Of a DNA stretch of 64,000 nt, positions 2,332 through 45,770 are shown one piece after another (position 1 is the first letter of the stretch; every line of letters begins with the position of its first letter). The stretch spans positions 25,998 to 89,997 of the forward strand of contig JAFVXW010000020.1 of NCBI GenBank assembly GCA_017500935.1. Direction: 5' to 3'. Below the pieces are notes generated by a model. It was not told the DNA's origin. It worked only from the letters and a program-made list of their open reading frames with translations, and did no database searches. Source of the stretch: Lachnospiraceae bacterium (GTDB taxonomy: Bacteria; Bacillota; Clostridia; Lachnospirales; Lachnospiraceae). The position numbers and the translations under genes are program-made.

Positions 2332-2515
2332 GTAGGTCTTCTGACTTATACGTTCAGAGAGTTCTCTCAGCGCCTGCCTTTTGCCTTCTCAGGTTTTACC
2401 CCAATGACCTGCTTTCGCAGAAAAAAGACAGCCTCCGTACATACAGCACCTCGGATTTTTATCCGCCGTGTTCCGGATTCTCACCGGATTCCCTTGTTCA
2501 GCTGAACAAGAATGC
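2332..2515 (-). promoter_or_regulatory. cobalamin riboswitch 1 (gene-proximal of three)
   Basis: Read on the minus strand, the element has GGGAATCCGGTGAGAATCCGG, then a variant of the GCCACTG core (GGTGCTGTATG), GTCATTGGGG, CCTGAGAAGGC and the closing AAGTCAGAAGACCT. This is the expected order for a cobalamin riboswitch. Its 3' end lies about 135 nt before the GTG of the secreted protein. No T-tailed hairpin follows, so the platform may act on the ribosome binding site; that is inferred. Confidence 0.88.
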
Positions 2516-2643
2516 GTGTCTTTTGTTTCCAATCGGTCGCGCATCAGCCACAAACTAAGCCGGATATCTATTTAAAACCGCCAAAAGCGGCGGAATTCCT
2601 CATTATTTTGCACAAGCAGCCTCGTATTATCGTTTTTTACCAT

Positions 2644-2680
2644 AAAAAAACGACAGCAAATAAACATTCGCTGCCGTTTT
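2644..2680 (-). terminator. intrinsic terminator of riboswitch 2
   Basis: On the minus strand AACGGCAGCG pairs with TGCTGTCGTT across a 10-nt loop and is followed by seven T. It sits about 70 nt downstream of riboswitch 2 and upstream of riboswitch 1, so it fits that element's expression platform. A second strong hairpin (CCTTTG...CAAAGG, 2703-2735) lies between them and could be part of the switch. Confidence 0.8.
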
Positions 2681-2749
2681 CTGCTTTTTATACAAAGCCA
2701 ATAACCCCTTTGCCCATCGCACGGGTACAAAGGAGTCTCTTTCATTCCA

Positions 2750-2935
2750 GTAGGTCTTCTGACTTATGTCTCAAACAATGATCTGCCTGCCTTCTCAGAA
2801 AAATCCAATGACTGACTTTCGTCAACGACAAACCATCTCGACACTTACAGCGCCGGCAGCGCGGGGACTTACACCCCATTCTCTTATTCAGCCAGGTACT
2901 CGTCATGCGCTATACCCGGCCACTGGAACTAACTA
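2750..2935 (-). promoter_or_regulatory. cobalamin riboswitch 2 (middle of three)
   Basis: On the minus strand: GAATGGGGTGTAAGTCCCC, a core variant GGCGCTGTAAG-TGTCGAG, GTCATTGG, CTGAGAAGGC and AAGTCAGAAGACCTAC. It differs in its stems from riboswitches 1 and 3, so it is not a recent duplicate. It is followed by its own terminator. Confidence 0.88.
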
Positions 2936-2952
2936 TTTATTTTTTTAATAAC

Positions 2953-3006
2953 AAAAAAGGTTATGGCGTTCTTACCTATATAAAGGCAGAATATCACCAT
3001 AACCAT
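2953..3006 (-). terminator. intrinsic terminator of riboswitch 3
   Basis: On the minus strand GGTTATGGTG pairs with CGCCATAACC across about 27 nt and is followed by six T. It begins about 25 nt after riboswitch 3, so it is a plausible regulated terminator. Confidence 0.75.
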
Positions 3007-3029
3007 TCCTGGCAAGTATTCTATCGACC

Positions 3030-3235
3030 ACAGCAGTTCTCCCGACTTGCATCTCAAACGAAGAAAGATCCTGCCTTCTCAGGTTGCCCCAATGACTGGC
3101 TTTCGCCAACGAATCTTTTTCTCGATGCCCACGGTATTGGTTAATGCGGGGATTTGGATAAAATCCTGACCCCATTCCCTTATGTAGCTCCAAAGCCTGA
3201 CTTTTGTCTTTACAGCAAGGGAGCCTCTGTGCAAT
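3030..3235 (-). promoter_or_regulatory. cobalamin riboswitch 3 (promoter-proximal of three)
   Basis: On the minus strand: AAGGGAATGGGGTCAGGA, a diverged core (ACCGTGGGCATCGAG), GCCAGTCATTGGGG, CCTGAGAAGGC and AAGTCGGGAGAACTGC. The order and spacing match a cobalamin riboswitch, though the core and the last box are less canonical than in the other copies. The 5' limit is approximate. A promoter must lie above it, or transcription continues from the HNH-repeat gene that ends at 3302. Confidence 0.8.
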
Positions 3236-3301
3236 TTTCCGAGTTCATTATAATTGATTTACTTTTAGATTACAATAACATATTTTCAGAATATGTATCG
3301 C

Positions 3302-3478
3302 TTATTCCTGTTTCACAGGCTTTAATCCCGCATTTTCCAATGCTCTGGGCCACGGTCCCAGCACAGACTTGATAAACTGGATATCCCGCATTTCAAAATC
3401 CGCTTTTTTCGGGATTCTGCCCAGTTCTTCTGCCTTTCTGCGAAGCAGGAATGTTGCATACTGTTTTTTATTCATCAT
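3302..3478 (-). CDS. small HNH-repeat / homing-endonuclease-associated-repeat-like protein
   Basis: A 58-residue frame starts at ATG 3478 (an adjacent ATG at 3475 is possible) and ends at TAA 3302. It contains AEELGRIPKKADF followed by a helical part ending near ENAGLKP, the pattern of the short repeat found in homing-endonuclease-associated and some DNA-binding proteins. It begins 9 nt after the cysteine-rich gene and is probably the last cistron of the riboswitch-4 operon. It is one repeat with no nuclease domain, so a small DNA-binding role is possible but unproven. It is easily missed because it is short. Confidence 0.6.
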   Translation of the reverse strand: MMNKKQYATFLLRRKAEELGRIPKKADFEMRDIQFIKSVLGPWPRALENAGLKPVKQE

Positions 3479-4356: not shown

Positions 4357-6159
4357 TTATCTGTTTGGACTTTCATAGCGTTTTTCCGTATCACGCATAT
4401 GCGCCAGCATGATCTGCGCTTTCTTTTCCAGCTGCCTGGGCAGATTCTGGCTTAACAGGAAAATATCTTCTCCCACTTCCGGCTCTGTCACCACAAAAAA
4501 GCGTTCCGTTCTTCCTCTTAAAAGTGCCGCCAGCTGATATGCATTGTCGATCTCGTCACGGGCGATCTCGTTCATCCGGTAATATCTGTCATCTCCGGTG
4601 ATCGGCCATACAGTCTTTAACTCTGCTGCCTCCTCTGCCTTTGTGGAATCCAGAATATACTGATATTCCGCCGCATGTGAAAGTGTATCGATCAGACAGC
4701 ACATCACCTTCAGACGGTCTTTCAACATCTTGCTGTCAGCGATTTTCCAGACCTCATTTTCACTCATATGATCCAGAAGCTGCATCGCACGTTTCAAATT
4801 CTTTTTGGCATCCTGACAGCACAGCCTGGTAATACGTGATGCAGAAAATCCGCTCAAAAATTCCATGCCCTGAATATTCACATAATCCTGCGCCTGCTGC
4901 TCAGTCATTGCCTGGAACAGATACGGGCGGTAATACTGCTTCTCTTCCTCAGTCAGAAGCTCCGGATAAGGCACCAGCGGGCGGTTGATCAGTCTCTGGC
5001 TCACCAGCGGCATCATAACAAAGTTATCCAGCTGCAGGCAGGTCAGTTTTTCAAAGGCCACATCGATCTCAGTCCAAACCTGCAGCATTTTATCTGCGTT
5101 AGAGCATCCCGCCACCTTTTCGGCAGCCTTGGCCTGTACATTCTGAAGGTCTCTGTACGTCGGACCGCCGATTTCCAGCCATGCTTCCAATACCGCTTCA
5201 TATTCATGATGTGTGCATTCCGGCAAAAGAAGCTTCAGCCATTGAGCCTCACCCTGCTCCTGCTCCCATAAAATTTTGGAAAATGCCAGCGGGAAAGGAA
5301 TGTTTTTCAACGGTCTTGCATGTTCATAGCGGGTAAAATTATACTGAAAAACAGGTCTTTTTCCCTCTTTATTCCGGCCGCTTAACAGCTGTCCGTCATG
5401 CAGACTGCTGTAGCACTGATCCATCGCCGGATCGGGCTTCTTAAAGCCGAGAATATCGCTGGTCAGATCAATGACCATTTCTTTTCCATGATCAGCTGCC
5501 GCCTGCGTAAAAACGTCCAGAAAGCCCAGCAGACGCTTGGAAAGCGGAATATCGCGGCAGGCTGACGGTCCGTTTTCACCGACATAAAGCCCGTGGGACC
5601 AGCACAGTCCGGTGCCGCTGTCGTTGGTGATGATCTGAATATAGGAAATATCCACATCCCTGTATAAAATGTCCATCGCCTCGCGATAGAGCATCAGCAC
5701 CTCCGGATCATCCACACAGGGCGCAAAATACATATGGGTACTTCTGCGCGGATGGTCACATCTGGGGCCTCTCCAGTTGGGATGTTCCAGATACACTTCC
5801 TCCGGCAGATAAAAAGGATCGATCAGCACAAGGGCCGCCTTTAACCCATACTGCTTTGCAATTCTGGCCCGTTCCTTAAGCAGTTCTCTGTTAAGTTCTG
5901 CATATTCTGTATCCAGCCACGGCTTTAATGCATCGGGAACCGCAAGCTTAAACAGACTTGTCTGCAGCATTCCCCAGTTCGGATAGGGATCATTTCCCTG
6001 ACATTCCCATTCTTCCCTGCGCTTTGGAACATCCGAAATAAAAACATACTCTGCACCCAAAGCCGCTGCTCTCTGTGCCTCTTTCTCAAACTCCTCCAAA
6101 GACTGTTCCAGATAGGTTCTTTCGTGAAAATACTGAAACATCCATGTTTTGTTTTTCAT
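4357..6159 (-). CDS. glycoside-hydrolase-like TIM-barrel protein under a cobalamin riboswitch
   Basis: 600 residues from ATG 6159; AAGGAGG lies 11 nt upstream, and a longer frame to 6270 would start inside a palindromic repeat. There is no signal peptide, so it is cytoplasmic. The N-terminal half has alternating strand/helix character (ALGAEYVFISDV, YGLKAALVLIDP, ISYIQIITNDSGTG, KEMVIDLTSDI) resembling TIM-barrel glycosidase-like proteins; the C-terminal half is helical. No catalytic pair can be assigned. It is first in an operon with DUF2284, the Cys-rich small domain and an HNH-repeat peptide. Because its leader holds a cobalamin riboswitch, it may act in corrinoid metabolism or as a B12-independent substitute; both are inference. 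Confidence 0.65.
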   Translation of the reverse strand: MKNKTWMFQYFHERTYLEQSLEEFEKEAQRAAALGAEYVFISDVPKRREEWECQGNDPYPNWGMLQTSLFKLAVPDALKPWLDTEYAELNRELLKERARIAKQYGLKAALVLIDPFYLPEEVYLEHPNWRGPRCDHPRRSTHMYFAPCVDDPEVLMLYREAMDILYRDVDISYIQIITNDSGTGLCWSHGLYVGENGPSACRDIPLSKRLLGFLDVFTQAAADHGKEMVIDLTSDILGFKKPDPAMDQCYSSLHDGQLLSGRNKEGKRPVFQYNFTRYEHARPLKNIPFPLAFSKILWEQEQGEAQWLKLLLPECTHHEYEAVLEAWLEIGGPTYRDLQNVQAKAAEKVAGCSNADKMLQVWTEIDVAFEKLTCLQLDNFVMMPLVSQRLINRPLVPYPELLTEEEKQYYRPYLFQAMTEQQAQDYVNIQGMEFLSGFSASRITRLCCQDAKKNLKRAMQLLDHMSENEVWKIADSKMLKDRLKVMCCLIDTLSHAAEYQYILDSTKAEEAAELKTVWPITGDDRYYRMNEIARDEIDNAYQLAALLRGRTERFFVVTEPEVGEDIFLLSQNLPRQLEKKAQIMLAHMRDTEKRYESPNR

Positions 6160-6423: not shown

Positions 6424-6484
6424 TTTTTTCTGCAAACAAAATAACCCCCCAGTCTTATCTCGAGACTGGCGGCATTTCCCGTTT

Positions 6485-6662
6485 AAGCAGGTCTCCTGAC
6501 TTGCCTCTCATCAGCTTACGCACCAGCCTTCTCAGGGAAAATCCCCAATGACCGACTTTCGTCTTGTGTGCAGCCTCCTTGCATACAGTGGCGGTACCGT
6601 TCCGGATTCTGACCGGATTCACTATTCTCCATTGAGTCCATACGCATCTCAATGGCACTTAA
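6485..6662 (-). promoter_or_regulatory. cobalamin riboswitch 4
   Basis: This is the most canonical copy. On the minus strand it reads GAATCCGGTCAGAATCCGG, ACGGTACCGCCACTGTATGC, GGAGGC, GTCATTGGGGA, CCTGAGAAGGC and AAGTCAGGAGACCTGC. Downstream on that strand are a terminator and then the operon starting at 6159; the divergent cobT reads the other way and is not its target. Confidence 0.93.
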
Positions 6663-6870
6663 ACGTATTTTTTCGTAATTTCGATAAAAGCAAACGCTTC
6701 TGATTTAAGATTACACACAATCCTGCCTTTTGTCAATCCGGACACTTTAAGATATGCACACTTTGTAAAATTTGCGGCATAAAGTTTTCTCTTTCGGGCA
6801 ATTGACACACATTCCCGGAATGCATACAATAAAAAACAGGATACTTGTACCCGGAAAGGACCTGATTTTG

Positions 6871-11579: not shown

Positions 11580-13538
11580 TTATTTTTCAGCAACAACTTC
11601 TTCTTTGCGGATTTCTTTGGTTCTGATTTCCTTGCAGATTGCATTTACGAAATCATCCAGAGCCTTCACGCCTTCATCACCTGCAAAACGGCTTCTTACT
11701 GCAACGGTTCTGTCAGCTTCTTCCTGTGCACCAACTACAAGCATGTAAGGAAGCTTGTCAAGACGTGCTGCACGGATCTTGTAGCCGATCTTTTCGGAAC
11801 GGTTATCAACAGTTGCCAGCACACCGTTGTTCTTTAATTCTTCGCATACGCTGTTTGCGTAGTCGATATATTTCTCGGAAATAGGAAGGATACGAACCTG
11901 TTCAGGACACAGCCATGTAGGGAATTTACCTTCGTATTTTTCGATCAGCCAAGCCAGAGTTCTTTCATAGCAGCCCATGGAAGTTCTGTGAATGATGTAA
12001 GGACGAACCTTATCACCGTTCTGATCGATATAAGTCATGTCAAAACGTTCTGCCAGGAACATATCCAGCTGAATGGTGATCATGGTATCTTCCTTGCCGT
12101 ATACGTTCTTAGCCTGAATGTCGAGCTTAGGACCGTAGAATGCTGCTTCGCCTTCTTCTTCGGTAAATTCGATGTCGTTGGCACGAAGCATCTGACGCAT
12201 CATTTCTTCGACTTCCATCCACTGTTCCAGAGTGCCCAGATATTTGCCCATGTTGTTGGGATCGCACTTGGAAAGACGGTAGGTTACATCACCTTCCAGA
12301 CCCAGAGTGGTCAGGCAGTATTTTGCCAGATTTACACAGCCATGGAATTCTTCTTCCACCTGATCGGGTCTGATCACCAGATGTCCTTCGGAAATGGTGA
12401 ACTGACGTACACGGGTAAGACCGTGCATTTCGCCGGAATCTTCATTTCTGAAAAGTGTGGAGGTTTCACCGTATCTTAAAGGCAGATCTCTGTAAGATTT
12501 CTGGCTCTGTTTGTATACATAATACTGGAAAGGACAGGTCATGGGACGAAGTGCAAATACTTCATCATCGGTTTCTTCATCGCCCAGAACGAACATGCCT
12601 TCTTTGTAATGTCCCCAGTGGTCAGAGATCACATACAGATCCTTCTTTGCCATCATGGGAGTCTTGGTGCGGACATAGCCGCGTCTTTCTTCTTCGTCTT
12701 CGATCCATCTCTGCATGGTCTGGATCATCTTTGCGCCCTTGGGCATCAGCAGGGGCAGACCCTGACCGATCACGTCAACGGTTGCAAACAGTTCCATTTC
12801 GCGGCCCAGTTTGTTGTGGTCACGTTTCTTTACATTTTCAAGATATTCCAGATACTCAGCCAGTTCTTCCTTCTTATTGAAAGCAGTACCGTAGATTCTC
12901 TGCAGCTGTGCATTTTCGGATTTTCCTCTCCAGTATGCCATAGAGGAGGAGATCAGCTTGAATGCCTTGATACCCTTGGTGCTCATCAGGTGAGGACCTG
13001 CGCAAAGGTCAACAAATTCGCCCTGGCTGTAGAAAGAAATCTTTGCATCTTCGGGAAGGTCTCTGATCAGCTCTACCTTGTAAGGCTCACCCTTTTCTTC
13101 CATAAAAGCAATCGCTTCTTCTCTGGGAAGCTCAAAACGCTCCAGCTTCTTGCCTTCTTTGATGATCTTTTTCATCTCAGCTTCGATCTTATCCAGATCT
13201 TCTCTGGAAAAAGGCGCATGTTCAAAATCGTAGTAGTAACCGGTATCAATGCTGGGACCGATTGCCAGCTTGGCATCGGGGAATACACGCTTAACAGCTT
13301 CTGCCATTACATGGGAAGTGGTGTGGCGGATAGCAGCCAGACCTTCCCTGTCATTTGCAGTCAGAATGCTTAATTCGCAGTCTTCTTCGATAACAGTACG
13401 CAGATCTTTTACTTCGCCGTTTACCATACCGGCGCAAGCCACTCTTGCAAGACCTTCACTGATGTCCTGAGCGATTTCAAAAATGCTCATTGCCTGTGCG
13501 TATTCTTTTACAGAACCGTCTTTTAAAGTAATCTTCAT
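11580..13538 (-). CDS. thrS: threonyl-tRNA synthetase
   Basis: ThrRS charges tRNA-Thr in the cytoplasm. ATG 13538 has GGAGG 7 nt upstream and gives 652 residues; an in-frame ATG at 13550 overlaps that binding site. Domains run TGS (MKITLKDGS..., residues 1-60), the editing/SAD domain with HTTSHVMAEAVKRVFP (about 70-85), the class II core with RPMTCPFQYYVYKQ and HGLTRVRQFTISEGH, RTSMGCYERTLAWLIE (motif 3), and the anticodon-binding domain starting at VRILPISEKY. The Cys in MTCP and later His residues are the Zn ligands. It follows the Cys-rich membrane gene and is under the same T-box leader. Confidence 0.97.
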   Translation of the reverse strand: MKITLKDGSVKEYAQAMSIFEIAQDISEGLARVACAGMVNGEVKDLRTVIEEDCELSILTANDREGLAAIRHTTSHVMAEAVKRVFPDAKLAIGPSIDTGYYYDFEHAPFSREDLDKIEAEMKKIIKEGKKLERFELPREEAIAFMEEKGEPYKVELIRDLPEDAKISFYSQGEFVDLCAGPHLMSTKGIKAFKLISSSMAYWRGKSENAQLQRIYGTAFNKKEELAEYLEYLENVKKRDHNKLGREMELFATVDVIGQGLPLLMPKGAKMIQTMQRWIEDEEERRGYVRTKTPMMAKKDLYVISDHWGHYKEGMFVLGDEETDDEVFALRPMTCPFQYYVYKQSQKSYRDLPLRYGETSTLFRNEDSGEMHGLTRVRQFTISEGHLVIRPDQVEEEFHGCVNLAKYCLTTLGLEGDVTYRLSKCDPNNMGKYLGTLEQWMEVEEMMRQMLRANDIEFTEEEGEAAFYGPKLDIQAKNVYGKEDTMITIQLDMFLAERFDMTYIDQNGDKVRPYIIHRTSMGCYERTLAWLIEKYEGKFPTWLCPEQVRILPISEKYIDYANSVCEELKNNGVLATVDNRSEKIGYKIRAARLDKLPYMLVVGAQEEADRTVAVRSRFAGDEGVKALDDFVNAICKEIRTKEIRKEEVVAEK

Positions 13539-13559
13539 AATATCCTCCATTTCAGAATC

Positions 13560-45472: not shown

Positions 45473-45770
45473 ATCCTCTGCATTCCGATTAAGAATACAG
45501 AGGACGAGAAAATCAATAATCCCGTGGTACCACCTCAGTTCGCTGCCATCTCACGACAACAGCCTTATCAGGTACTTACATACCTTAGTTCTGTAACGGG
45601 AACACCCGTTGCATCCTACTTAGGATCGCTCCTGTTCAGCGCACTGCTAACAGAATGAATTCGAGAAGGACGCCCCCTTTGCCTCGCACCAACCGGCAAC
45701 TCTCTCCAGGTTCTTTCCAACCTACTGGTTTCTGCTCTTCGCATTTAACGTGTACAACATATTCTGTTGA
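45473..45770 (-). promoter_or_regulatory. T-box leader of paaK-ACT, specifier reading UUC (Phe)
   Basis: On the minus strand the T-box core GAGGTGGTACCACGGG (45521-45536) is followed by a terminator (TCCTCTGTATTC/GAATGCAGAGGA, T7; 45473-45505). Stem I upstream includes AGAGAGTTGCCGGTTGGTGCGAGGCAA and then the specifier context CTCGAATTCATT, where TTC at 45657-45659 is phenylalanine. Upper limit approximate. Confidence 0.88.

Follow-up and report, generated by a model that had tools for sequence, protein, structure and literature searches.

Leaders in which one riboswitch class is repeated have been described, and 26 AdoCbl doublets are given in a 2022 survey of tandem riboswitches (PMC9481103), where such repetition is predicted to be pseudo-cooperative. 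The leader described here resembles these doublets in that the same class recurs within it, but it holds three switches and the third lacks a convincing terminator. The same survey describes a seven-riboswitch region of Desulfobacca acetoxidans in which three AdoCbl riboswitches with terminators lie close together; these, however, are in three clusters separated by ORFs, and each is paired with c-di-GMP or c-AMP-GMP switches. Three complete switches of the same class before one operon are found in the Bc3-5 c-di-GMP-I triple-tandem of Bacillus thuringiensis (PMC4759541), which has been tested and was reported to be more stringent and digital. Its ligand is a different one and its three members are described as similar in structure, whereas ours are strongly diverged. 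The corrinoid riboswitches of P. megaterium metE (repressing) and A. halodurans cobT (activating) share with our array the class and, presumably, the L5-L13 logic and control through a terminator (PMC10653944); those are single, whereas in our second switch the complement of L5 lies within the terminator arm.

No AdoCbl triplet was found in the accessible text of the 2022 survey (PMC9481103) and no cobalamin triplet in the main text of a 2025 survey (PMC12452182), and in a search of open-access text the phrase "three cobalamin riboswitches" referred to three per genome or transcriptome and not to an array. An earlier note on this DNA, made from the sequence alone, had known of no described triple of this kind. 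As far as these sources go this holds for cobalamin, for which we found none described, but not for triplets as such, which the 2022 survey names for other riboswitch classes (PMC9481103).

The window is a stretch of 64,000 nucleotides of a contig from a Lachnospiraceae bacterium. A search of a 2-kb stretch of it (cmscan, Rfam 15, gathering thresholds) gave three RF00174 matches on the minus strand, at 3015-3220 (RS1; 32.1 bits, E = 6.8e-6), 2732-2942 (RS2; 60.0 bits, E = 7.4e-14) and 2314-2566 (RS3; 54.7 bits, E = 2.4e-12). The gathering cut-off is 31.5 bits, so that RS1 passes by a margin of 0.6 bits. Where families of the clan overlap the tool retains the best one, and this was RF00174 at all three positions. 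Since there are five RF00174 matches in the whole genome of 3.56 Mb, three within 0.9 kb are not a chance occurrence. The earlier note had proposed three cobalamin riboswitches in series on this strand at 2332-3235, which proves right to about 20 bases, and far from failing on two of the three copies the Rfam covariance model accepts each of them.

In transcript order, all on the minus strand, the leader comprises a promoter-like site, RS1, a first intrinsic terminator (T1), RS2, a second (T2), RS3, a Shine-Dalgarno sequence and the GTG at 2197-2195. The promoter-like site is sigma-70-like (TTGTAA-17-TATAAT, 3247-3275) and matched 10 of 12 positions in a consensus scan. RS1 extends by eye to about 3235 through an outer P1 helix (3015-3235). 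T1 (2953-3004) and T2 (2644-2680; 13 pairs) fold at -21.6 and -19.8 kcal/mol, respectively, each with a U run behind it, and the T1 stem is kept in three relatives that carry the same array. These relatives also keep a hairpin between RS2 and T2 (2705-2735) and, by alignment, a hairpin GCGCC-UUUU-GGCG in the platform of RS3 (2237-2249), a possible anti-Shine-Dalgarno partner. The Shine-Dalgarno sequence AAGGAGG (2206-2212) belongs to a first gene that encodes a secreted protein of 964 residues with a C-terminal dockerin (Pfam Dockerin_1, 1.8e-8); it occupies 1-2197, is cut by the edge of the window and continues on the contig (G000:C3). As judged from sequence, this is a leader of about 1.05 kb, presumably transcribed from one promoter, with three complete, diverged cobalamin riboswitches of class-I type that would be expected to bind corrinoids.

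In RS1 the loop of a GGGG/CCCC hairpin (within 3150-3169) holds an extra small hairpin, GGAU-AUCC in the window and GGAC-GUCC in the relative L044, and we take this insertion to lie in L4, the hairpin loop preceding L5. In corrinoid riboswitches L5 is a UCCCG-like loop (PMC10653944); in RS2 it is held by GCUGCCG at 2854-2860, which complements the 5' arm of T2 at 2670-2676.

The assignment of T1 and T2 in the window rests on folding, because a consensus terminator scan of the window did not have them among its sites; the same scan found T2 in L045 and L044. Its two minus-strand sites, against 1.7 expected by chance, were at 2593-2578, between T2 and RS3, and at 2200-2185, a weak site that overlaps the start codon of the first gene, and neither has a sense-strand counterpart in the scans of L045 and L044. 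Behind RS3 a structure search gave just a structure of -9.1 kcal/mol besides the weak site 2200-2185. Both were considered as a terminator of RS3 and both were taken as chance. RS3 thus appears to be without a convincing terminator and to precede the ribosome-binding site, so that the earlier note was also correct in placing terminators after the first two switches and none after the third. The promoter scan of the leader region of the window gave five sites against 3.0 expected in shuffles. Before RS1, TTGCAA-17-TATAAT is the only promoter-like match in the leaders of L045 and L044, and it is seen by eye in L043. The window has further weak promoter-like sites on the minus strand at 3015-2988 and 2242-2215 (9/12 each), which are without counterpart in the consensus scans of L044 and L045. 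No conserved promoter-like site between the switches, which the earlier note had named as a sign of separate transcripts, was found in the scans of the window, L044 and L045.

A scan of named genomes with the first gene found three relatives, all of them MAGs labelled Oscillospiraceae: L043 (SIG483), L044 (RGIG8578, from water deer cecum) and L045 (RGIG6248, from sheep rectum). Their first genes are 57-71% identical to that of the window (58-71% over the gene), and the array is present in all three, with eight of the nine switches over the RF00174 cut-off; RS1 of L044 falls below it at 23.1 bits, and all three switches pass in L043 and L045. As three other MAGs carry the same array it is not an assembly accident, and the leaders of L043 and L045, which are nearly identical, count almost as one. 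Orthologous switches are 80-94% identical to those of the window (RS1, the most conserved, 85-94%; RS2 and RS3 80-82%), whereas the three types are 45-58% identical to each other, from which it follows that the array is old and, as the earlier note held, no fresh tandem copy. Within the window RS1, RS2 and RS3 are 48-56% identical to one another and 51-56% identical to RS4, a fourth riboswitch located further upstream. A more distant homologue (G225, 46%) has no RF00174 match.

All three relatives have an HNH_repeat-type ORF of 135-136 residues between T2 and RS3 (Pfam PF18780 was found in those of L045 and L044, and that of L043 was assigned by sequence), so there the first two gates also precede that gene. 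In the window the ORF is missing between RS2 and RS3, and a 58-residue HNH_repeat ORF (PF18780) lies upstream of RS1 at 3302-3478 on the minus strand. Several smaller features were seen in the relatives. One stem-loop of RS3 in L044 holds about 160 inserted bases (5530-5690). In L045 (5870-6000) and L043 (5790-5925) the hairpin and ribosome-binding site between RS3 and the first gene seem to have been duplicated, with a two-codon frame left over. L045 (3110-3621) and L043 (3890-4029, minus strand) also have a weak match to AdoCbl (RF01482), below the cut-off and diverging from the array; that of L045 precedes a DUF4430 lipoprotein.

Pairing was counted for RS1+T1 and RS2+T2 over the four sequences, two of which are nearly identical, and the structures counted derive from the same alignments, so that the counts favour them. 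For RS2+T2, 98.9% of cells were paired over 91 pairs and 9 of the 91 pairs had changes in both partners; on four of five measures the real alignment was equalled by none of 500 shuffles and on the fifth by 4 of 500, and slid versions of the structure were 39-50% paired. In T2 itself, 4 of the 13 pairs have changes on both sides among the four genomes. For RS1+T1, 99.1% of cells were paired over 85 pairs, and the cells paired, the cells changed on both sides and the covariation score each beat all 500 shuffles; the number of pairs changed on both sides (6) and the further pair types were unremarkable (164 and 355 of 500 shuffles, respectively). These counts point to conserved folding with compensatory changes in RS2+T2, and in RS1+T1 on three of the five measures.

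The earlier note had the array standing before one secreted-protein gene; that gene is in fact the first of an operon-like run of about 28 kb, which continues on the minus strand from the 964-residue frame to the end of contig C3 (frames found mechanically). Pfam matches in the run include dockerin, cohesin, Big_2, InlB-like repeats, a MoxR-type AAA protein, transglutaminase/TgpA, a beta-propeller protein with a dockerin, DUF4430 (3.4e-16) and CbiQ (2.1e-7). An alpha-toroid lipoprotein is matched by squalene-cyclase models below their cut-offs, and the contig ends within the first part of an ABC ATPase. The two largest intergenic gaps, of 219 and 147 bases, each hold one 9/12 promoter-like site, and no minus-strand terminator was found in them by the consensus scan. 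The gene order is common to this genome and G645, except that a 578-residue gene is only partly matched there and the 499- and 811-residue genes correspond to one gene in G645. In each of the four genomes DUF4430 is encoded on the strand of RS3, 24-27 kb downstream of it.

Side by side, the alpha-toroid and DUF4430 lipoproteins recall the alpha and beta domains of transcobalamin and intrinsic factor, DUF4430 being a domain that vertebrate transcobalamins carry in their C-terminal region (PMC4350170); here, in contrast, the proteins are bacterial, the two parts are split over two proteins, and they are accompanied by CbiQ and an ATPase. A model of the toroid protein (mean pLDDT 82) had terpene cyclases as its best Foldseek matches, and these match better by E-value than transcobalamin, which is among the 50 matches listed (E 1.9e-3 to 4.7e-3, TM 0.50-0.53). 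The predicted fold agrees with a transcobalamin-like role without singling it out. For the DUF4430 lipoprotein a search by sequence found no solved relative (best E 0.69). In G075 a single RS3-type switch, by eye with a terminator of its own, heads a compact cluster of toroid/DUF4430, toroid, CbiQ and ATPase genes. From its gene content the run is probably a corrinoid capture-and-uptake operon.

Upstream of the array are the HNH_repeat ORF, a zf-like gene (PF04071), a DUF2284 gene and a gene of 637 residues, and CobT and CobU are encoded nearby on the other strand. RS4, the genome's fourth cobalamin riboswitch (6469-6677, minus strand; 93.8 bits), stands before the 637-residue gene, in which no Pfam family was found at 0.01, and is near CobT and CobU. 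The fifth (L008 9339-10517, minus strand; 37.9 bits) stands before a protein with a weak DUF4430 match and an ECF S component.

The reading that we prefer, with a probability of about 0.68, is a triple corrinoid OFF gate before a capture-and-uptake operon. One promoter would give rise to a leader with three separate corrinoid riboswitches, of which RS1 and RS2 would each decide whether RNA polymerase stops at its own terminator and RS3 would most likely control translation start of the first gene. All three would be OFF switches and, with corrinoid plentiful, any one of them would shut the operon, so that a costly surface machine would be made only in real shortage. Gut bacteria compete for corrinoids, and through the array a cohesin/dockerin surface assembly and proteins resembling those of the transcobalamin type would come under corrinoid control in such bacteria.

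If RS1 and RS2 are OFF switches, T1 and T2 must somehow be kept from forming while no ligand is bound, and helices made with bases of the two aptamers are candidate antiterminators. GCUGCCG of RS2 complements CGGCAGC/U in the 5' arm of T2 with 7 pairs in all four genomes, which 1 of 300 column shuffles did as well, and AGGCAGGAU of RS1 can pair with AUUCUGCCU/GUUCUGCCU in T1 in all four genomes (9 bp; 17 of 300 shuffles as good), the arms for these shuffle tests having been chosen after viewing candidate helices. In stepwise folding of RS2 of the window, L5 paired with T2 at 3 of 13 transcript lengths, shortly before the terminator was complete. For RS3 the best pairing between aptamer and platform was not above chance, being equalled in 68 of 300 column shuffles; candidates for a helix that would sequester the Shine-Dalgarno sequence were found and were rejected on this ground. 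When the platform is folded alone, the Shine-Dalgarno sequence pairs with coding sequence in the window genome and L045.

By arithmetic, three independent equal gates would reduce the 10-90% span from 81-fold to 32-fold and bring the midpoint to 0.26 K. The earlier note had suggested a steeper switch; the span does narrow, but the gain is small against the lowered midpoint and a leak that is multiplied down. The main benefit of stacking would be that shut-off is tighter and the response comes earlier, as would fit an operon of 28 kb. Lower leak, a lower threshold, different corrinoids and opposite signs are all possible reasons for stacking, and an old array with three strongly different aptamers in four genomes is a natural system in which to ask why switches are stacked.

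One rival of this OFF gate concerns the sign of the switches. In described corrinoid riboswitches the L13 partner of L5 is bound when corrinoid is bound, and in one activating riboswitch P13 and the terminator are mutually exclusive (PMC10653944). Because GCUGCCG holds L5 and its complement is in the T2 arm, the pairing that could serve as a ligand-free antiterminator of an OFF switch also fits an ON switch. RS2, and perhaps RS1, might accordingly be activated by corrinoid, with the 5' arm of the terminator as kissing-loop partner, while RS3 represses; the operon would then be made only with some but not too much corrinoid, or with the wrong corrinoid. We consider such mixed signs quite unlikely. 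In all four genomes the 5' arm of T2 does contain the exact complement of L5 of RS2 (UGCCG), and in a control scan of 36 loci, which covered three of the four array genomes, located L5 by a simple pattern that took the wrong letters for RS1 and RS3 and included several doubtful controls, 11 full complements were found, 7 of them upstream of a terminator and 1 in a 5' arm. For RS1, L5 was read by eye as UACCG, which can pair with UGGUG of T1, though weakly (-3.4 kcal/mol); the available text of PMC10653944 presents one activating case only, and it would be strange for uptake genes to be under ON control. OFF is favoured as the sign by what the run encodes and by the repression described for other members. 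In its full form, with RS1 and RS2 both ON switches whose L5 seizes the terminator 5' arm and RS3 an OFF switch, the leader would act as a band-pass or corrinoid-type filter, and a capture machine of 28 kb would be built only when corrinoid is present but insufficient; this we regard as quite unlikely too. We know of no natural leader in which activating switches are combined with repressing ones of the same riboswitch class.

The array could also be two units, RS1 and RS2 forming a doublet mainly for the HNH_repeat gene and RS3 being the proper operon switch; in the window the three would stand together since the small gene is absent from between them. The position of that ORF in L043, L044 and L045 is what would be expected, as is RS3 alone heading the compact cluster in G075. 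In a tree of 50 of the 64 sequences, 14 weak or short matches having been dropped beforehand, RS1 joins RS2 (UFBoot 95) apart from RS3, which joins the G075 single switch (UFBoot 100); the 12 array members are not one clade, and RS1, on a long branch, nests within RS2 and so keeps it from being a clade. RS3 thus seems to be the old partner of the uptake genes, to which the RS1/RS2 pair was added later. We nevertheless judge two separate units unlikely, as no promoter-like or sense-strand terminator-like site lies between the ORF and RS3 in L045 and L044 and the window has no ORF separating RS2 from RS3. That RS1 no longer binds corrinoid, a degenerate aptamer being kept for its terminator or for leader structure, is suggested by its low scores here and in L044, by a core that is off consensus and by the insertion in the GGGG/CCCC hairpin loop. 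Against this, RS1 is the most conserved of the three switches and its helices keep pairing through changes, and in G156 an RS1-type switch was seen with no second one, on a contig that begins shortly upstream; decay of RS1 is in our opinion rather improbable.

No other pair of cobalamin riboswitches on the same strand within 1 kb was found in 98 genomes (the host's own and relatives, strict filters), and in a class survey of 341 genomes the best 150 matches included at least two same-strand pairs about 650 bases apart (G695:C15 and G970:C1). An RS1 model matched 15 of 397 genomes at E <= 1e-6, the host genome included, and 9 of the other 14 loci were read in detail; the T1-arm motif is present in one of the 14, that of G156. 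There an RS1-type switch (L086, G156:C37:1-700; 22.1 bits, below the Rfam cut-off) stands before a secreted protein and has 161 bases in one loop, including two near-identical repeats (partly by eye). Judged by eye, the protein encoded after L093 is HNH_repeat-like and the one after L088 is a toroid protein; mini-aptamers about 90-150 bases upstream of their RF00174 matches, also noted by eye, were unsupported by Rfam and were rejected.

The first gene was absent from all 12 other genomes in the genus. At E 1e-20 it was missing from 295 of 299 genomes sampled across the family (four hits, the host included), and at E 1e-40 from 391 of 392 sampled across the order. This distribution is patchy, and the gene has perhaps moved sideways. 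The host assembly is 5.67% contaminated. ThrS (11580-13550, minus strand) is nearest to another genus (83%), with identities of 43-54% to the 10 of 12 congeners that gave a match, whereas the single-copy MnmA of the contig has its closest counterparts in three congeners (62-65%, as against 42-47% for the seven further congeners that gave a match), and for this reason the contig was not called foreign despite ThrS. The window also contains a T-box leader at 45497-45748 on the minus strand (100.5 bits).
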